Origin: an uncultured Bacilli bacterium
GTDB taxonomy: Bacteria; Bacillota_I; Bacilli_A; RFN20; CAG-449
Assembly (NCBI GenBank): GCA_944332525.1
Contig: CALVKD010000082.1
Span: 1 to 40,243 of the forward strand
Length of the DNA: 40,243 nt
Direction of reading: 5' to 3'
This document shows, in pieces, positions 32,781 to 40,102 of this stretch. The position numbers and the translations under genes are program-made. Every line of letters starts with the position of its first letter. The stretch's first letter is position 1. Below the pieces are notes generated by a model, which searched no databases, was not told the origin of the DNA, and saw only the letters and a program-made list of their open reading frames with translations.

Positions 32781-32790
32781 ACTCTCCTCA

Positions 32791-32810
32791 TTTGTTAGGA
32801 TGCTAACAAA
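32791..32810. promoter_or_regulatory. MarR operator
   Basis: TTTGTTAGGATGCTAACAAA: perfect 8-bp arms around GATG, located between the predicted start point and the ribosome binding site of the marR-ABC operon. Confidence 0.8.
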
Positions 32811-32821
32811 TTCCTTTACTC

Positions 32822-33028: not shown

Positions 33029-33057
33029 TTGCATTAAAAGCAAAAAGACTTTAAGAT
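33029..33057 (+). promoter_or_regulatory. Promoter of the lipoprotein operon
   Basis: TTGCAT (33029-33034), 17 bases, TAAGAT (33052-33057). The start would fall at about 33063-33065, the first base of the leader hairpin. Confidence 0.6.
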
Positions 33058-33063
33058 AAAAAC

Positions 33064-33158
33064 AATAAAAAAAGGGGAGTTAAGTAATTTGATATCTATA
33101 TACACATTCTTAATGAAGTGTATTTTAACAATATCTCCTTTTTTATTAAAGAAAGGAG
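33064..33158 (+). promoter_or_regulatory. Switch-like 5' leader with mutually exclusive hairpins
   Basis: Structure 1: AATAAAAAAAGGGGAG (33064-33079) pairs with CTCCTTTTTTATT (33135-33147), enclosing nested stems GATAT/ATATC and ATACAC/GTGTAT. Structure 2: the same CTCCTTTTTT (33135-33144) pairs with AAGAAAGGAG (33149-33158) over the loop ATTA, ten pairs with one G-U, hiding the Shine-Dalgarno sequence of the gene at 33171. Both cannot form at once. The 5' arm imitates the Shine-Dalgarno sequence. No known riboswitch class is recognised. Confidence 0.6.
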
Positions 33159-33170
33159 TCTTTAGCACAA

Positions 33171-35234
33171 ATGAAAAACTCAAAGAAAATACTTGTAAGC
33201 TTATTAGCTATAGGAATGTTAGCTTCCTGTGGTGGAGGAAGTTCAACACAATCTTCTAGCACAACTACTTCTTCTAACCCACCTGTTTCTAGCGAATCAT
33301 CTCAACCAACAGTCAAACACACCATTACTGTTGGAGAAACTGGAGGAGCGATTGTGACTTTTGACAAAGAAACCGCATCAGCAGGAGAAAAAGTCACTAT
33401 CACAATCACTAATATTCCAGAAGATAAAGTTATTGATGAAGTAACAACCGGCATTGATGGTGTCGATGTAATGACTACAGATAATGTTACGTATTATTTT
33501 ATTATGCCAAATATTGACGTTACTATTTCAGTTATTTTGAAAGACAAAGTAGCGACTAGCTATCAATTAACTATTAAAAACAATGCTGATGTTACTTATC
33601 ATTTACTCGATTCTGGCATGAACGAATTAATTGGAGAAAATGGTATATTCACCCTAAAAGCAAATCAGCCATATTACATTTCAGTAGCTGGTGGAAATAA
33701 CAATCTTTTAATTTATCAAGAAGGATATAAAGATTGGCCATTTGCTTCTCAAGATGGAATTTATTCTTTTACTATGCCAGAAGATGACTATGTTATTGTA
33801 ATTGATCAAAAAGAAGTAGGTAAAGTTGTTTTAGATTTCAATGCAGAAGCATTTGAAATTGCTCCTTATCTCGTTGTTGGAGAAACAATGGTTGATGAAG
33901 CAAATATTGCAGTTGGATCTACTGTAAAATTAGAGTATTCTCTTAATCAAGGTTTTATCGTAACTGCAGTAAAAATTAACGGATCTCCAATAGAAGCTAG
34001 TAGCAATGGTTTATATTCCTTCGTAATGCCAAGTGGAACTATAACTTTGACAATTGAAACTGCTGAAGAAGGTATTGAAGATGATGGAAAATATTTGGTA
34101 ACTGTTAATGATGAAGTCCAAGTATTTAAAGTTACATTTGGAACATTAAAAGGATCTAATAATACTTTTGTTCCATCTACATCTTTTATCCAAAATTACA
34201 CTGAACTAGAAACTGGAACAACAATGTATTTCTGCGTAGAATTATCTAAACCATATGTAGGATTATATTCTTTATCTGAAATCTTAATTGATGGAACTAA
34301 AGCTGAACCAGCTTTTGAAGTTACAGAAGGAACAGAGACAATTAAATATTACTCATTTACTATTACCGATCATGATATCGTTATTACCATAAAATCAGAA
34401 GCAACATTAATGCCATTAAATTTCACTGATACTGAAAGTACTGGTGCAACATGTGTATTCACTAACGCAGAAGGTGAAACAGTTACTAGCGCACCATATA
34501 ATTCAAGAGTTACTGCTACTTTCGATAATATTCCATCAGGATTGTCTCTATATCAATTAAAAGTAAATGGATACAATCCAACAAATCCAGTTTATGAAGG
34601 TAATAGTTGTACATTCACAGTTCCAAAAGCCGGAACAAGTGGAAACGTTGAAGTCACTGCTGTATTTGCTGATACAACAACAGCTTATAATTTGACCTAT
34701 GTTGCAAAAGCTGGTGCAACCGATTTAACAACAGATACAACTGTCAAATTCTATACTGATGTCTTAGGTAATCCAATAACTACAGCTCATTATGGCGATG
34801 TAATTTATTTCAATGTTAGCGCACCTAATGGTTATATCGTGAAAAGCGTCACAATAGATTCAAATGATGTATCACAAACCTGGGGTGATGATGGAAAACG
34901 TTACTATACGTTTACAGTGGAAAATTCAAATATCAATATAAACATCGAATTAGAAGCCACTAGCCAAACATACTCTTTCTCTTTTGATACAACTAATTGG
35001 CCTTCAGAATACGATTTAACTGTCAAAATCAATAGAAATGGTTGGCAATTTTTAAATGAAGATCAATATTTCGGCGAAGCAGGTGAAACCTTTAGTATAG
35101 ATTTATGGTCAACCGAAAAAATGTTGATTGCTTTATATGCTAATGGTGAAGAATTATCCATTGGTCCTGATGGAGTTACATATTCATTTACATTACCAGC
35201 TGAAGATGTTGTAATTACTGCTGAATGGATGTAA
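33171..35234 (+). CDS. Surface lipoprotein of seven divergent InlB-B-like modules
   Basis: A 687-residue lipoprotein: signal peptide with lipobox MLASC at about residue 20, Ser/Thr linker to about 45, then seven beta-rich modules of about 70-100 residues. Each ends in a Y-S-F-x-MP-type strand: YYFIMPNIDVTI, YSFTMPEDDYVIV, YSFVMPSGTITLTI, YSFTITDHDIVITI, CTFTVPKAG, YYTFTVENSNINI and YSFTLPAEDVVITA. This is the layout of divergent InlB B-repeat (Flg_new_2) domains found in cell-surface proteins. No cysteines occur after the lipobox region except isolated ones, and no enzyme motif is visible. It is the first gene of a four-gene operon with a structured leader. Ligand unknown; adhesion or glycan binding is a guess. 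Confidence 0.8.
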   Translation: MKNSKKILVSLLAIGMLASCGGGSSTQSSSTTTSSNPPVSSESSQPTVKHTITVGETGGAIVTFDKETASAGEKVTITITNIPEDKVIDEVTTGIDGVDVMTTDNVTYYFIMPNIDVTISVILKDKVATSYQLTIKNNADVTYHLLDSGMNELIGENGIFTLKANQPYYISVAGGNNNLLIYQEGYKDWPFASQDGIYSFTMPEDDYVIVIDQKEVGKVVLDFNAEAFEIAPYLVVGETMVDEANIAVGSTVKLEYSLNQGFIVTAVKINGSPIEASSNGLYSFVMPSGTITLTIETAEEGIEDDGKYLVTVNDEVQVFKVTFGTLKGSNNTFVPSTSFIQNYTELETGTTMYFCVELSKPYVGLYSLSEILIDGTKAEPAFEVTEGTETIKYYSFTITDHDIVITIKSEATLMPLNFTDTESTGATCVFTNAEGETVTSAPYNSRVTATFDNIPSGLSLYQLKVNGYNPTNPVYEGNSCTFTVPKAGTSGNVEVTAVFADTTTAYNLTYVAKAGATDLTTDTTVKFYTDVLGNPITTAHYGDVIYFNVSAPNGYIVKSVTIDSNDVSQTWGDDGKRYYTFTVENSNININIELEATSQTYSFSFDTTNWPSEYDLTVKINRNGWQFLNEDQYFGEAGETFSIDLWSTEKMLIALYANGEELSIGPDGVTYSFTLPAEDVVITAEWM

Positions 35235-35279: not shown

Positions 35280-36776
35280 ATGAAGAAAAAACTAATTAAT
35301 GTATTAACTTTATTATTCACTACTGGTGCTTTAGTATCATGTGGTGGAACTACTACATCTGGAGCGACGTCATCGGTATCTACTTCACAAACTCCATCTC
35401 AAACAGTTGAACCAATTGAAATCAATGACGTAATTAACTCTCTTAGAAAAGGTTTTAAAATGACTGGAACTTTGACAGTTGACTATTCTTATTTCACTGA
35501 TTCAACATACCAAGTACCAGATACTGCTGTAGAAGAAAAAGCAAATCAATATACATTCGAATTTAATTATGAAGATTCAGAATCATATACTGGATTAGAT
35601 AGACGTTTTTTCAAAGTAAATGGCGATACCACTACTTATTATTTCGGAGAAAATTCTTTTAACGACAATGGTTATGCTGCATTAAATTATCTTGATTATG
35701 ATAACACAGTTGCCCAATCTATTGCAGTTGATTCAAATGGCGATTTAGTACCTTATGGAACTAATGGCTTATTAAATCCATTTAAATTATTACAAAGAGA
35801 TGATTTCCATCAAACAGCTGAAGGATTCACTTTATCTTCAACAAAAGCCACATTATTGTTCACAACATTATTTTCTCAAGTCGAAGATTATCGTCAAAAT
35901 GTTACATTTGAGACTAGAAACTTTAATTTCACAAGTGACACATTAACATCGGCTGACTTAGTATCATTTAACATGGATTCTGTTACAGCATCTACAGTTG
36001 AAACCGAAGAAGATGACTATCATCAAACTTATATTAGATATAATTTCTCTGTACATCTTGAATTTAGTGAAATAGGTACAGCTAAAAGTAGCGATATGAT
36101 TAACCCTATTCCTTCAACAGAAGAAAATGATCCTCTTAGAAAAGCTCTTGCCAATATGGTAGAAAAGGAGGAAGTAACTGTTAAGAGAAGATTAACACCA
36201 TATATAGACGGAAAATATGTTGGTTATGATAATTGCTATAATGTTTATTATATGGGTGAAAGTGAAGGCATTTATGGTCAATCATTCAACTTATATGAAG
36301 GCGATTCTGAACCTGATTATCCAACAACAAGTGACATTATATTAAAACCATATAAAGGAACTCCTAATACATTATTGAGAGTTTATCAACTTAACGATAC
36401 TACTAATAAATTCTCTATGAATAGTGCCAATTTTAGCAATTTGGACAATCAATTTCTTTATAACAATGTCAAGTATGATTTATCTATTTTAAGCGCTGAT
36501 ATTTTTACAAAGAACGAAGATGGATCATATACCCCTAATATCGATAATATTCCTTATATTACTAGAGATTTATTTATGTCTACATTTGATATGTTTACAC
36601 CTGTTGACATGGGCTATGTAAATGATGTAAGAGTCTATGTAAACGAAGATGAAACCTGCATTGATTATATAGAAATTGATTATGCTGATTTTACTGGTTA
36701 CTCAGGATTAATGACTATTACTTATGAAGACTTAGGCGACTCTAAACCAGCCTTTGATATTGTTATTGATGAATAA
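35280..36776 (+). CDS. Lipoprotein of unknown function, paralogue A
   Basis: A 498-residue lipoprotein. Signal peptide with lipobox LVSC, a Ser/Thr linker of about 25 residues, then an acidic, Tyr/Asp/Asn-rich body. It begins INDVINSLRKGFKMTG and ends with YEDLGDSKP. Two halves are suggested by internal recurrence of an LR...(L/M)... helix and a final F(S)EIG / YEDLG strand. The next gene shares LRKGFK(M/L)TG and FS(E/D)IG at similar places. No family recognised. AAAGGA precedes the start, 45 bases after the previous gene. Confidence 0.75.
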   Translation: MKKKLINVLTLLFTTGALVSCGGTTTSGATSSVSTSQTPSQTVEPIEINDVINSLRKGFKMTGTLTVDYSYFTDSTYQVPDTAVEEKANQYTFEFNYEDSESYTGLDRRFFKVNGDTTTYYFGENSFNDNGYAALNYLDYDNTVAQSIAVDSNGDLVPYGTNGLLNPFKLLQRDDFHQTAEGFTLSSTKATLLFTTLFSQVEDYRQNVTFETRNFNFTSDTLTSADLVSFNMDSVTASTVETEEDDYHQTYIRYNFSVHLEFSEIGTAKSSDMINPIPSTEENDPLRKALANMVEKEEVTVKRRLTPYIDGKYVGYDNCYNVYYMGESEGIYGQSFNLYEGDSEPDYPTTSDIILKPYKGTPNTLLRVYQLNDTTNKFSMNSANFSNLDNQFLYNNVKYDLSILSADIFTKNEDGSYTPNIDNIPYITRDLFMSTFDMFTPVDMGYVNDVRVYVNEDETCIDYIEIDYADFTGYSGLMTITYEDLGDSKPAFDIVIDE

Positions 36777-36791
36777 GGAGGATAATCGACA

Positions 36792-38333
36792 ATGAAAAAA
36801 CAAAACATTTTATTAATATCATTATTTGGAATCTTGGCGCTTACCTCCTGTGGTGAAACATCTTCAACGACAGGATCATCTAGTTCTGCATCAAGTTCTC
36901 AACCAGAAATTTCAACAAGTGATTCTGAAAAAGAAGTATTTAATGATGAGATATTAAAAAACAATATTGATTTACTTAGAAAAGGATTTAAATTAACTGG
37001 TAACGTACTACAAGAACGCTATAACTCATCAACTGATAGCGAAGGAAACTATATTCCTGTAGGCGAACCAATTGAAGAAAATAGATATGTTACTGAAGTT
37101 GCTTTCAATAGTACAACAGAAAATGCTTTCTATAAATATTCTTATCGTACAGTTGAAGGTGTAGTTATTCCAGCTGAAGGGCCATACACATATTTTGAAG
37201 ATGATAATGGCTACGCATATACAGAAGAAATCGACTATACTAATACTGTTGTCAAAAATTACTCTTCTGCATTAGCTACAACACAAAATGGATTAACTTT
37301 TGCTGATAATGGATTCTATAATTTTGCTACTATACTATTAGAAGACGATTTTACAAAAGATGAAGATTCTGTCGCATTTACGAGATATGACTTGAATATT
37401 GATAAGGCTGCGATTATTTCAAACAATTTGCTTTACTCATTAAATTCAGGTGCTTATGCTCTACCAGAAGAAGCTTACATTCGTGTTGATAATGGAATTT
37501 TTACATCATTGAATATTACTTTATCACCAATTTCATCAGTTGATATCTATACTGGTCAAGTCACAATGATTTCTAACACAGTTACTTTTACTTTCAGCGA
37601 TATTGGTGAAGAAACTGTCACTCACTTACAACCAAATGAATCTTCTGCTGATTCCGAAAAATTAGAAACCGCTTTATCAAAATTTGCTAATACTTCATAT
37701 AAGATGACTACTGTAGAGAATTATGAAAGTACTAATATCTACACTGGTGATGTTGAACAATTAATTAACTATACTCAAGATTTCTATTTTACTGGTAAAG
37801 AAATCTATATACATGAAAGAGGTAGAAACGAAACTTCAACTGTCTTAGATAAAACTAATGACTATTATTTAGCGCCTGCTTCTGAAGCAGACCCTCATTT
37901 ATATCCTTATGGATATGATGCTTCAACTCAAGGTTGGACTATCAAAGCAGATGGATATTACGGAGAAGATGGAAGCATTAAATTTGCAAAAGGATATTGT
38001 GGAATGTATTTATACGAAGATTTACTTCCAATCATTGCAGATGTTTCTGGTACATTCTTTGAATATAACGCAGAAGAAAACGCCTTCTACGCTAAAGATG
38101 GAATGATTACTTATTTATCACAATGTTTCATTATCAGTAAACAACCATTTACAATGACAAACTTTGAAAATGCAGATACTTTAAAAATTTCCTTAAATGA
38201 TGCTAATGAAGTTTCAAGTATTGAAATAATATACAATTATACAGATAGCCTTGATGGAACAATATACGATGGAAACATTACTGTTACTTATACAGATGTA
38301 GGTAATATCACATTAGAAGGATTAGTTGGTTAG
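36792..38333 (+). CDS. Lipoprotein of unknown function, paralogue B
   Basis: A 513-residue lipoprotein with lipobox LTSC and a Ser/Thr linker of about 25 residues. Shared with the preceding protein: LLRKGFKLTG at the start of the body, FSDIGEE midway, YTDVGNI at the end, and a long Asn/Tyr/Thr-rich beta-type composition. The two arose by duplication. The start has GGAGG directly after the previous stop (TAAGGAGG), 13 bases upstream. No catalytic motif is visible. Confidence 0.75.
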   Translation: MKKQNILLISLFGILALTSCGETSSTTGSSSSASSSQPEISTSDSEKEVFNDEILKNNIDLLRKGFKLTGNVLQERYNSSTDSEGNYIPVGEPIEENRYVTEVAFNSTTENAFYKYSYRTVEGVVIPAEGPYTYFEDDNGYAYTEEIDYTNTVVKNYSSALATTQNGLTFADNGFYNFATILLEDDFTKDEDSVAFTRYDLNIDKAAIISNNLLYSLNSGAYALPEEAYIRVDNGIFTSLNITLSPISSVDIYTGQVTMISNTVTFTFSDIGEETVTHLQPNESSADSEKLETALSKFANTSYKMTTVENYESTNIYTGDVEQLINYTQDFYFTGKEIYIHERGRNETSTVLDKTNDYYLAPASEADPHLYPYGYDASTQGWTIKADGYYGEDGSIKFAKGYCGMYLYEDLLPIIADVSGTFFEYNAEENAFYAKDGMITYLSQCFIISKQPFTMTNFENADTLKISLNDANEVSSIEIIYNYTDSLDGTIYDGNITVTYTDVGNITLEGLVG

Positions 38334-38335
38334 TC

Positions 38336-40102
38336 ATGAAAAAAAGTTTTGTTGCACTATCTATATTTTTAGCAACTGCGGCATTAGTAGTCGGTTGCAA
38401 TAATAATTTACCAACAAGCACATCACTCCCATCTAGTTCTATTTCCGAAACACCTGAGCTCTTTTCTTATAAAATTAGCATAACTGGCGAAGGGTCTGTA
38501 AAAGCATATAAAGATGGAATAACTATAACCGAGGACAATTTTGCACAAAATGTTGAAGTAGGTGATTCTATCACACTTGTCATCACTCCTAATCAAGGAT
38601 ATGAAATTACTTCTGTATCACTAAATGGTAATTATATTGCAAAATCTAATGGTACATATACATTCACTTGTGTTGATGGAGAAAATCATGTAAATGTAAT
38701 CTTTTCATTAATTGAAACAAACAACGATGACTTTACATTTGCTATAGAAGACAATCAAGCTATTGTTACTGGCTATCAATGTTCTACGATTACTCTTCCT
38801 TCACCTGTTGTTATACCTAATACTGTCACTTTAAAAAATGTTGAATATAAAGTTACAGGAATTGCCGACTATGCTTTCTCAAATACAGATATTTCTTGCT
38901 TAAGATTAGGTAGCAATATTAAGTCTATAACTCCTTTATCTTTTGCTAATATGAACTTTTTAACATCTTTTGAAGTCGATGAAAATAATACATATTTATT
39001 TGCCGAAAATGATCTTCTCTATTCTAAAGATAATCAATTAGTTAGGGCTCCAATCAATTATCAACATAAGACTTTAACAGTAAGGAGTGGTACTACTTCC
39101 TTAGCTGATTACTCAATATCAAGTGTTTTATTAGTTGAAGAAGTAATTCTGCCAGACGGTTTAAAAGCAGTTGGAAACTATGCTTTCTATTTTGATAAAT
39201 CGCTTAGTAAATGTGATATGCCAGACACTGTTGAAAGTATAGGTGACTTTGCTTTTAGAAATTGTCAAGACTTAAATACTATCGATTTAGGCATTTCTCT
39301 TAACTCAATTGGTAGTGGAGCTTTCTACACTAGTGGAATTACAACCATTACCTTTCCGTCTACGTTAAAAACCATCTCTGAATATTGTTTCTATTATTGC
39401 AAAAGTTTGAAAAGCATTTACTTTAATGAAGGTTTAGAAACGATTGAAGAACAAGCATTTATTTCTACAGCTTTAACATCTGTCACCTTGCCAAATTCAT
39501 TACGTTATTTGAAAGGACATGCCTTTGAAACATGTTCATCATTGACAAATATTACTTTAAACGATGGATTATTAGAAATTGGGGATTTATGTTTTTCCAG
39601 ATCTTATTCCCTAACTAAAATAGAAATTCCTTCATCCGTGACTACGATGGGAATTAATCCTTTCTCTGGAATTACTCGTCTCGGTTATGAAGATGATTCA
39701 TTTACAATTCGCGGTAATAATCCAAACTTTGAAATAATAGATGGAGTCCTTTTTTCAAAAGGCGATAATCCAACATTAATTTGTTATCCTGTAGGAAAAA
39801 TTGATACTTCATATACTATTCCAAATGGAATTACAACATTAGCTCAAGATTCTTTCATATATCAAAGATCTGTTAAAACTATTACCATTCCTGTTTCAGT
39901 AACAGATATCAATGGAGCATTTGTCTCCATGTATACCGATATGACAGATGGTCAAATTCATACTTTATCTATTGTATATCTTGGAACATCTGCGCAATTC
40001 CGTCAAATCAATCTCCATGGTAGTGAAGGCGAATGGCATTCTGGAACAACACTTACAAATGGTTCAGTTACTTGTTCTGATGGTCAAATCATAGTTGATT
40101 AA
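38336..40102 (+). CDS. BspA-type leucine-rich-repeat lipoprotein
   Basis: A 588-residue lipoprotein. Signal peptide with lipobox VVGC, linker, one divergent InlB-B-like module (about 45-135: ISITGEGSVKAYKDG, then VEVGDSITLVITPNQGYEI), then about ten LRR_5 repeats to the end. Examples are SIGDFAFRNCQDLNTIDL, ISEYCFYYCKSLKSIYF and LKGHAFETCSSLTNITL. These domains occur in surface adhesins of gut and oral bacteria and protists. The start is two bases after the previous stop with only a distant GA-rich site, so translation is coupled. It is last in the operon; an IS end follows 23 bases after the stop and no terminator is seen. Confidence 0.88.
   Translation: MKKSFVALSIFLATAALVVGCNNNLPTSTSLPSSSISETPELFSYKISITGEGSVKAYKDGITITEDNFAQNVEVGDSITLVITPNQGYEITSVSLNGNYIAKSNGTYTFTCVDGENHVNVIFSLIETNNDDFTFAIEDNQAIVTGYQCSTITLPSPVVIPNTVTLKNVEYKVTGIADYAFSNTDISCLRLGSNIKSITPLSFANMNFLTSFEVDENNTYLFAENDLLYSKDNQLVRAPINYQHKTLTVRSGTTSLADYSISSVLLVEEVILPDGLKAVGNYAFYFDKSLSKCDMPDTVESIGDFAFRNCQDLNTIDLGISLNSIGSGAFYTSGITTITFPSTLKTISEYCFYYCKSLKSIYFNEGLETIEEQAFISTALTSVTLPNSLRYLKGHAFETCSSLTNITLNDGLLEIGDLCFSRSYSLTKIEIPSSVTTMGINPFSGITRLGYEDDSFTIRGNNPNFEIIDGVLFSKGDNPTLICYPVGKIDTSYTIPNGITTLAQDSFIYQRSVKTITIPVSVTDINGAFVSMYTDMTDGQIHTLSIVYLGTSAQFRQINLHGSEGEWHSGTTLTNGSVTCSDGQIIVD

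Follow-up and report, generated by a model that had tools for sequence, protein, structure and literature searches.

The window, which means here the whole stretch of 40,243 nucleotides that was analysed and which is a contig from the genome of an uncultured member of the Bacilli, carries on its forward strand an operon of four open reading frames. The first gene (33171-35234) encodes a repeat-rich surface lipoprotein of 687 aa (MKNSKKILVSLLAIGMLASC) with a lipobox in its sequence, and three further lipoprotein genes with signal peptides follow in the same operon (35280-36776, 36792-38333 and 38336-40102, spanning 35280-40102). The preliminary description had placed a 7-kb surface-lipoprotein operon at this site, and this agrees with the four genes found, all of which begin with lipoprotein-type signal peptides. 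The product of the gene at 38336-40102 is a BspA-type leucine-rich-repeat lipoprotein (LRR_5) with a partial match to the adhesin HupY/LrrG. Upstream of the operon, a MarR regulator gene and two ABC transporter genes are located in divergent orientation. Just upstream of the marR start codon a perfect 9-bp inverted repeat, ATTTGTTAG-GATG-CTAACAAAT, was observed (32790-32811); it is identical in the same-genus relative G001 and similar in G002 and G021, and it is probably the MarR autoregulatory operator of a marR-ABC-ABC operon.

The leader of the lipoprotein operon (33064-33170) was found ahead of the orthologous lipoprotein gene, promoter included, in both same-genus relatives, G001 (73% protein identity) and G002 (33%) (records CALVJL010000005.1 and CALVJO010000009.1). 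The divergent MarR gene stands beside the lipoprotein ortholog in both of them, as in the window. In the genome collections examined the whole-leader orthologs were three only, and the GTDB genome scan returned just the two relatives, G001 and G002; the genome of the window is referred to as G000 below.

The predicted promoter is of the sigma-70 type (33029-33057, forward strand) and consists of TTGCAT at 33029-33034, a 17-nt spacer and TAAGAT at 33052-33057. It was not listed by the automatic promoter scan of the window, because its -10 element matches the consensus too weakly. The aligned promoters of the relatives, read by eye from the alignment, are TTGAAA-17-TAATAT in G001 and TTGAAA-17-TACTTT in G002, with equal spacing and an equal distance to the hairpin. 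Since the same promoter form occurs at the aligned position in the relatives, the transcript of all three species is predicted to start at the foot of the hairpin, at about 33064 in the window and 4 nt ahead of the helix. The promoter proposed earlier is thus upheld by comparison, with the start as a prediction from it.

The three pairing segments first described in the leader were confirmed by a sequence check, both their coordinates and their letters being exact: AAAAAAAGGGGAG occupies 33067-33079, CUCCUUUUUU 33135-33144 and AAGAAAGGAG 33149-33158. On the forward strand, the 5' arm of the outer helix, AAAAAAGGGGA (33068-33078), is a Shine-Dalgarno-like (SD-like) sequence and pairs with 33134-33144, while the 3' arm, UCUCCUUUUUU (33134-33144), includes a U-tract, is terminator-like, and is complementary both to the 5' arm and to the SD. 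In the minimum-energy structure the 5' side of an inner helix, GUUAAG (33079-33084), pairs with 33124-33129; this pairing is weakly supported, as its equivalent is displaced by about 5 nt in G001 and G002 is without one. The apical hairpin, AUACAC-A-UUC-UUAAU-GAA-GUGUAU (33100-33123), has a bulged A at 33106, a UUC/GAA stem (33107-33109/33115-33117) and a loop at 33110-33114. The ribosome binding site, AAGAAAGGAG (33149-33158), is the alternative partner of 33135-33144, and both pairings claimed for this segment could be folded in silico. The fold of the 112-nt leader, which is the long hairpin, has -21.9 kcal/mol (z -2.74, with 4 of 200 dinucleotide shuffles equally good), and the local sequestor hairpin 33135-33144/33149-33158 has -10.1 kcal/mol. 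When 30 nt of coding sequence were added to the leader, the minimum-energy structure (-22.1 kcal/mol) contained the sequestor hairpin; the long-hairpin and the SD-sequestering structures are nearly equal in energy in G000. Against shuffled sequences the fold was clearly better in two of the three species (z -2.74 in G000 and -2.33 in G002), the value of G001 (-0.61) not being significant alone.

Conservation of the leader hairpin exceeds that of its surroundings. Between G000 and G001 the hairpin is 86% identical (72 of 84 aligned bases), as against 70% in the upstream spacer and 59% in the first 99 coding bases. In G002 the hairpin measures 58 nt instead of 84, with the A-run, the apex AUUCUUAAnGAA and the U-rich 3' side retained, and the layout of promoter, hairpin and SD is conserved in the three species. 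In the three-species alignment, two-sided compensatory changes were seen in 4 of 20 pairs, and 10 of 500 shuffles reached the observed counts, which is the strongest result this test can yield on three sequences. In the outer helix of G002 one pair changed from G-C to A-U on both sides and one from G-U to A-U, and the apical hairpin contains three pairs with two-sided changes within the genus. When the outer helix and the apex were evaluated over the three species, 94.7% of the cells could pair as compared with 47-67% when the partners were slid by 1-3 columns, although this percentage leans towards the structure, which was drawn from those same sequences. The exact apical pattern occurs once in each genome of the genus, solely at the leader of the lipoprotein operon. 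Judged by its conservation, the leader hairpin is beyond chance.

The leader had been suggested to be of sequestor/anti-sequestor design. As a translational switch, it would use the 5' arm to keep the 3' arm off the SD until a signal (a protein, temperature, a ligand or 5'-end processing) frees the 3' arm, so that the SD becomes paired and translation stops. Several results point in this direction. When 14 nt of the 5' arm were kept single-stranded in silico, the accessibility of the SD fell from 0.43 to 0.07 in G000, from 0.22 to 0.01 in G001 and from 0.89 to 0.12 in G002, the last despite its changed arm sequences. The local sequestor of G000 is the strongest among the leaders of the 137 genes tested (-10.1 kcal/mol, with -10.0 in G001 and -4.5 in G002), and in this genome the near equality of the two structures would suit a switch. 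However, similar accessibility drops were obtained when SD regions taken from 492 further genes of the genus were grafted behind the same hairpins: 32% of the donor SDs dropped at least as much as the native one in G000, 40% in G001 and 3% in G002. This is explained by the 3' arm, CUCCUUUU, which resembles the ribosomal anti-SD and whose complementarity extends to practically every SD. A special match between the SD and the anti-SD arm did not pass this donor test and was rejected. Moreover, seven leaders from other genera showed no comparable effect of the 5' arm on the SD. The covariation check proposed for the three segments gave a divided answer, as the arms of the outer helix are conserved and covary, but the sequestor arms show no two-sided covariation in the genus. 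Thus, of the original design, the ability of the 3' arm to take the 5' arm or the SD as its partner stands in all three members of the genus, while the donor test, the sequestor covariation and the other genera speak against an evolved switch, which we regard as rather unlikely. The mutually exclusive, SD-hiding pairing is present in silico in the three species, no better than with the donor SD regions; competition for the SD is possible within the genus according to these folds and would not be the conserved function. Translational riboswitches and RNA thermometers similarly allow mutually exclusive pairing of the SD, but the present leader differs from them in that no aptamer core is found and the competition is neither tuned to the native SD nor common to the other copies.

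Because of the U-tract, transcription attenuation would be the main rival inside the genus. According to this explanation the long hairpin and the U6 tract form an intrinsic terminator, and a factor bound to the apex chooses between an RNA of about 80 nt and read-through. Behind the stem stands UUUUUUAUU in G000 as well as in G001, and UUAUUUAUUU in G002; a U-tract follows the hairpin in G169, too. There are, besides, few other uses for a hairpin of the terminator kind that lies between a divergent promoter and the gene it serves. A stem and a U-tract in the leader are also shared, in the genus of the window, with those intrinsic-terminator attenuators whose hairpins are bound by proteins. In contrast with such attenuators no antiterminator segment was found: if transcription starts at 33064, the hairpin foot, no sequence is left upstream of the 5' arm to form one, as judged by eye and in the folds. 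The U-tract, though kept in the genus, is absent from most copies in other genera and is not general, and a terminator scan restricted to loops of 3-8 nt did not list the long hairpin. Attenuation is considered unlikely.

A ligand-binding riboswitch of a new class was also considered, and the conservation of the leader, with its alternative pairings ahead of an operon, speaks for it. At the gathering threshold, Rfam returned only a tRNA in the window and left the leader unmatched, and a search with the leader alone at E 10 gave no credible match, which bears out the earlier remark that the leader matches no known riboswitch class. However, the leader consists of one hairpin only, with a lone bulge and a loop that varies, and the conserved multi-helix core of a riboswitch is absent; the invariant core comprises the bulged purine and UUC/GAA, not the many invariant unpaired bases of a riboswitch-type ligand core. 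The target genes are surface proteins and do not belong to metabolism or transport. The suggestion of ligand sensing finds no support, nothing being aptamer-like and no Rfam family matching. A metabolite riboswitch is unlikely, and we consider a new ligand-binding class very improbable. The conserved hairpin is probably a real, undescribed RNA control element rather than a metabolite sensor, as far as can be judged from the sequences.

A reading frame starting from TTG 33089 is open over 33089-33170 and enters the gene out of frame; it is open in G001 and missing in G002. A leader peptide from this codon was rejected, as nearly all the differences between G000 and G001 alter amino acids (by eye) and G002 is without a start codon there.

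A covariance model (R1) built on the whole leader was run over 279 genomes of the order. Besides the three orthologs it returned a few weak hits, one of which, in another family (G211), is situated 52 nt upstream of a lipoprotein start codon; in the orthologs of the G211 leader from two sister species, the stem and the bulge are preserved and the loop is variable. A second covariance model (R2) was built from nine sequences, and its matches were ranked blind to their context. The best non-training matches that were non-coding and had a clear downstream gene (G169, G200 and G176) all precede lipoprotein or secreted-protein genes, at 27-31 nt from the start codons of these signal-peptide genes. 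A fourth non-coding match (L286) precedes a doubtful frame of 84 aa. By our own estimate the chance of three out of four blind non-coding matches lying before signal-peptide genes is about 0.01, with a base rate of about 8% lipoproteins among the genes (44 of 521), or an assumed 15% or so when other secreted proteins are included. The N-terminal repeat domain of the window protein recurs in two of the three new lipoproteins (41% over 66 aa and 39% over 109 aa), so that for these two a shared ancestry of gene and leader is likely.

In a set of 11 leaders from five genera, which bears on the apical hairpin, two-sided changes were observed in 8 of 12 pairs, and the covariation score was reached by none of 500 shuffles. 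With the third model, R3, all 10 non-coding matches at E <= 0.02 within the order lie upstream of lipoprotein or secreted-protein genes; since all 10 are members of the model, the result describes the set and does not test it, and only three of them were found blind to context. The G210 leader, which has no clear SD, had been used in R2 and was excluded from R3. The models were refined stepwise with sequences that had in part been picked out through their context; the E-values of these are not independent, E-values are rough in general, and three blind matches are a small number. As a control, 20 R3 matches from other genomes of the class, outside the order, were examined; none precedes a lipoprotein or secreted-protein gene, and they comprise coding chance matches, terminator-like palindromes and others. 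A DNA-pattern search for the apex in the 279 genomes gave mostly coding chance matches, about as many as the reversed control pattern, and synteny with the MarR neighbour revealed no further leaders in other genera. Across genera, the leaders share a hairpin near the mRNA start, a bulged purine that sits three base pairs beneath the loop, and a strong SD a short way downstream. By comparison of these leaders, the conserved and recurring part is the apical bulged hairpin (stem, bulged A, UUC/GAA and a loop of 4-5 nt), which the preliminary description had not singled out.

These copies also bear on the reading of the hairpin as an inverted repeat which acts in DNA as an operator, or as a chance palindrome. 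The intergenic region is AT-rich and TTC-N5-GAA is a dyad, as such a reading would have it. However, each of the 11 copies has an additional base on the 5' side that interrupts the DNA dyad, the stems change by compensation, as expected of RNA, and the covariation is above both the shuffled and the slid controls. We find this reading quite improbable.

The best explanation, to which we give somewhat less than an even chance, is that the first 80 or so nucleotides of the mRNA form a 5'-terminal hairpin that serves the surface-lipoprotein operon as a cis-acting post-transcriptional element. It would act by protection of the mRNA, by binding of a factor to the bulged apex, or by both. The hairpin, standing just upstream of the ribosome site, would shield the 5' end of the mRNA, prolong its lifetime and keep the site open. 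The bulged apex, to judge from its conservation, may be the contact of a protein or nuclease that sets expression. In the genus of the window a further layer is possible, in which the 3' arm of the outer helix serves as an anti-SD and the ribosome site would close if the hairpin were opened from its 5' side.

Stabilisation of mRNA by a hairpin at the 5' end or close to it, together with ribosome binding, is known from B. subtilis, for example from the aprE leader (PMC3997798). The leader of the window has in common with the aprE-type 5'-terminal stem-loop stabilisers of Bacilli (compare ompA and papA in E. coli) the hairpin, here predicted to lie at the 5' end, the strong SD close behind it and the gene of a secreted or surface protein downstream. 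It differs from them by its recurring bulged-A UUC/GAA apex, which suggests recognition. The STAB-SD leaders (cryIIIA) likewise have a purine run resembling an SD close to the 5' end of the mRNA, as AAAAAAAGGGGAG is here, but in the window this run lies within a helix.

We propose, as a tentative and less probable extension, an undescribed element of the whole order: the bulged-A UUC/GAA hairpin in the 5' leader would tag transcripts for surface lipoproteins and secreted proteins, which an RNA-binding factor would then control jointly in uncultured Bacilli. Should the apical motif be a genuine recognition site, these uncultured gut Bacilli would control surface proteins post-transcriptionally via a shared RNA hairpin described by no catalogued family. 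It offers a short testable element (about 33 nt) and about 10 loci in five genera for seeking the binding partner.

The assumption that the lipoprotein genes of the genus generally have leader hairpins failed (17 versus 189 leaders, p 0.34). In another genus, g50, the lipoprotein leaders were weakly more structured than others (p 0.011, the paralogs not being independent). Many paralogous lipoprotein genes of g50 (L182, L184, L186, L193 and L249) have strong leader hairpins with mutually unrelated sequences, which sit between a TATAAT-like box and a AGAAAGGA ribosome site. Another lipoprotein gene of the window's genus, in G001 (L119 7299, forward strand), has a strong, unrelated leader hairpin as well (AAUAUUAGC...GCUGAUAUU).
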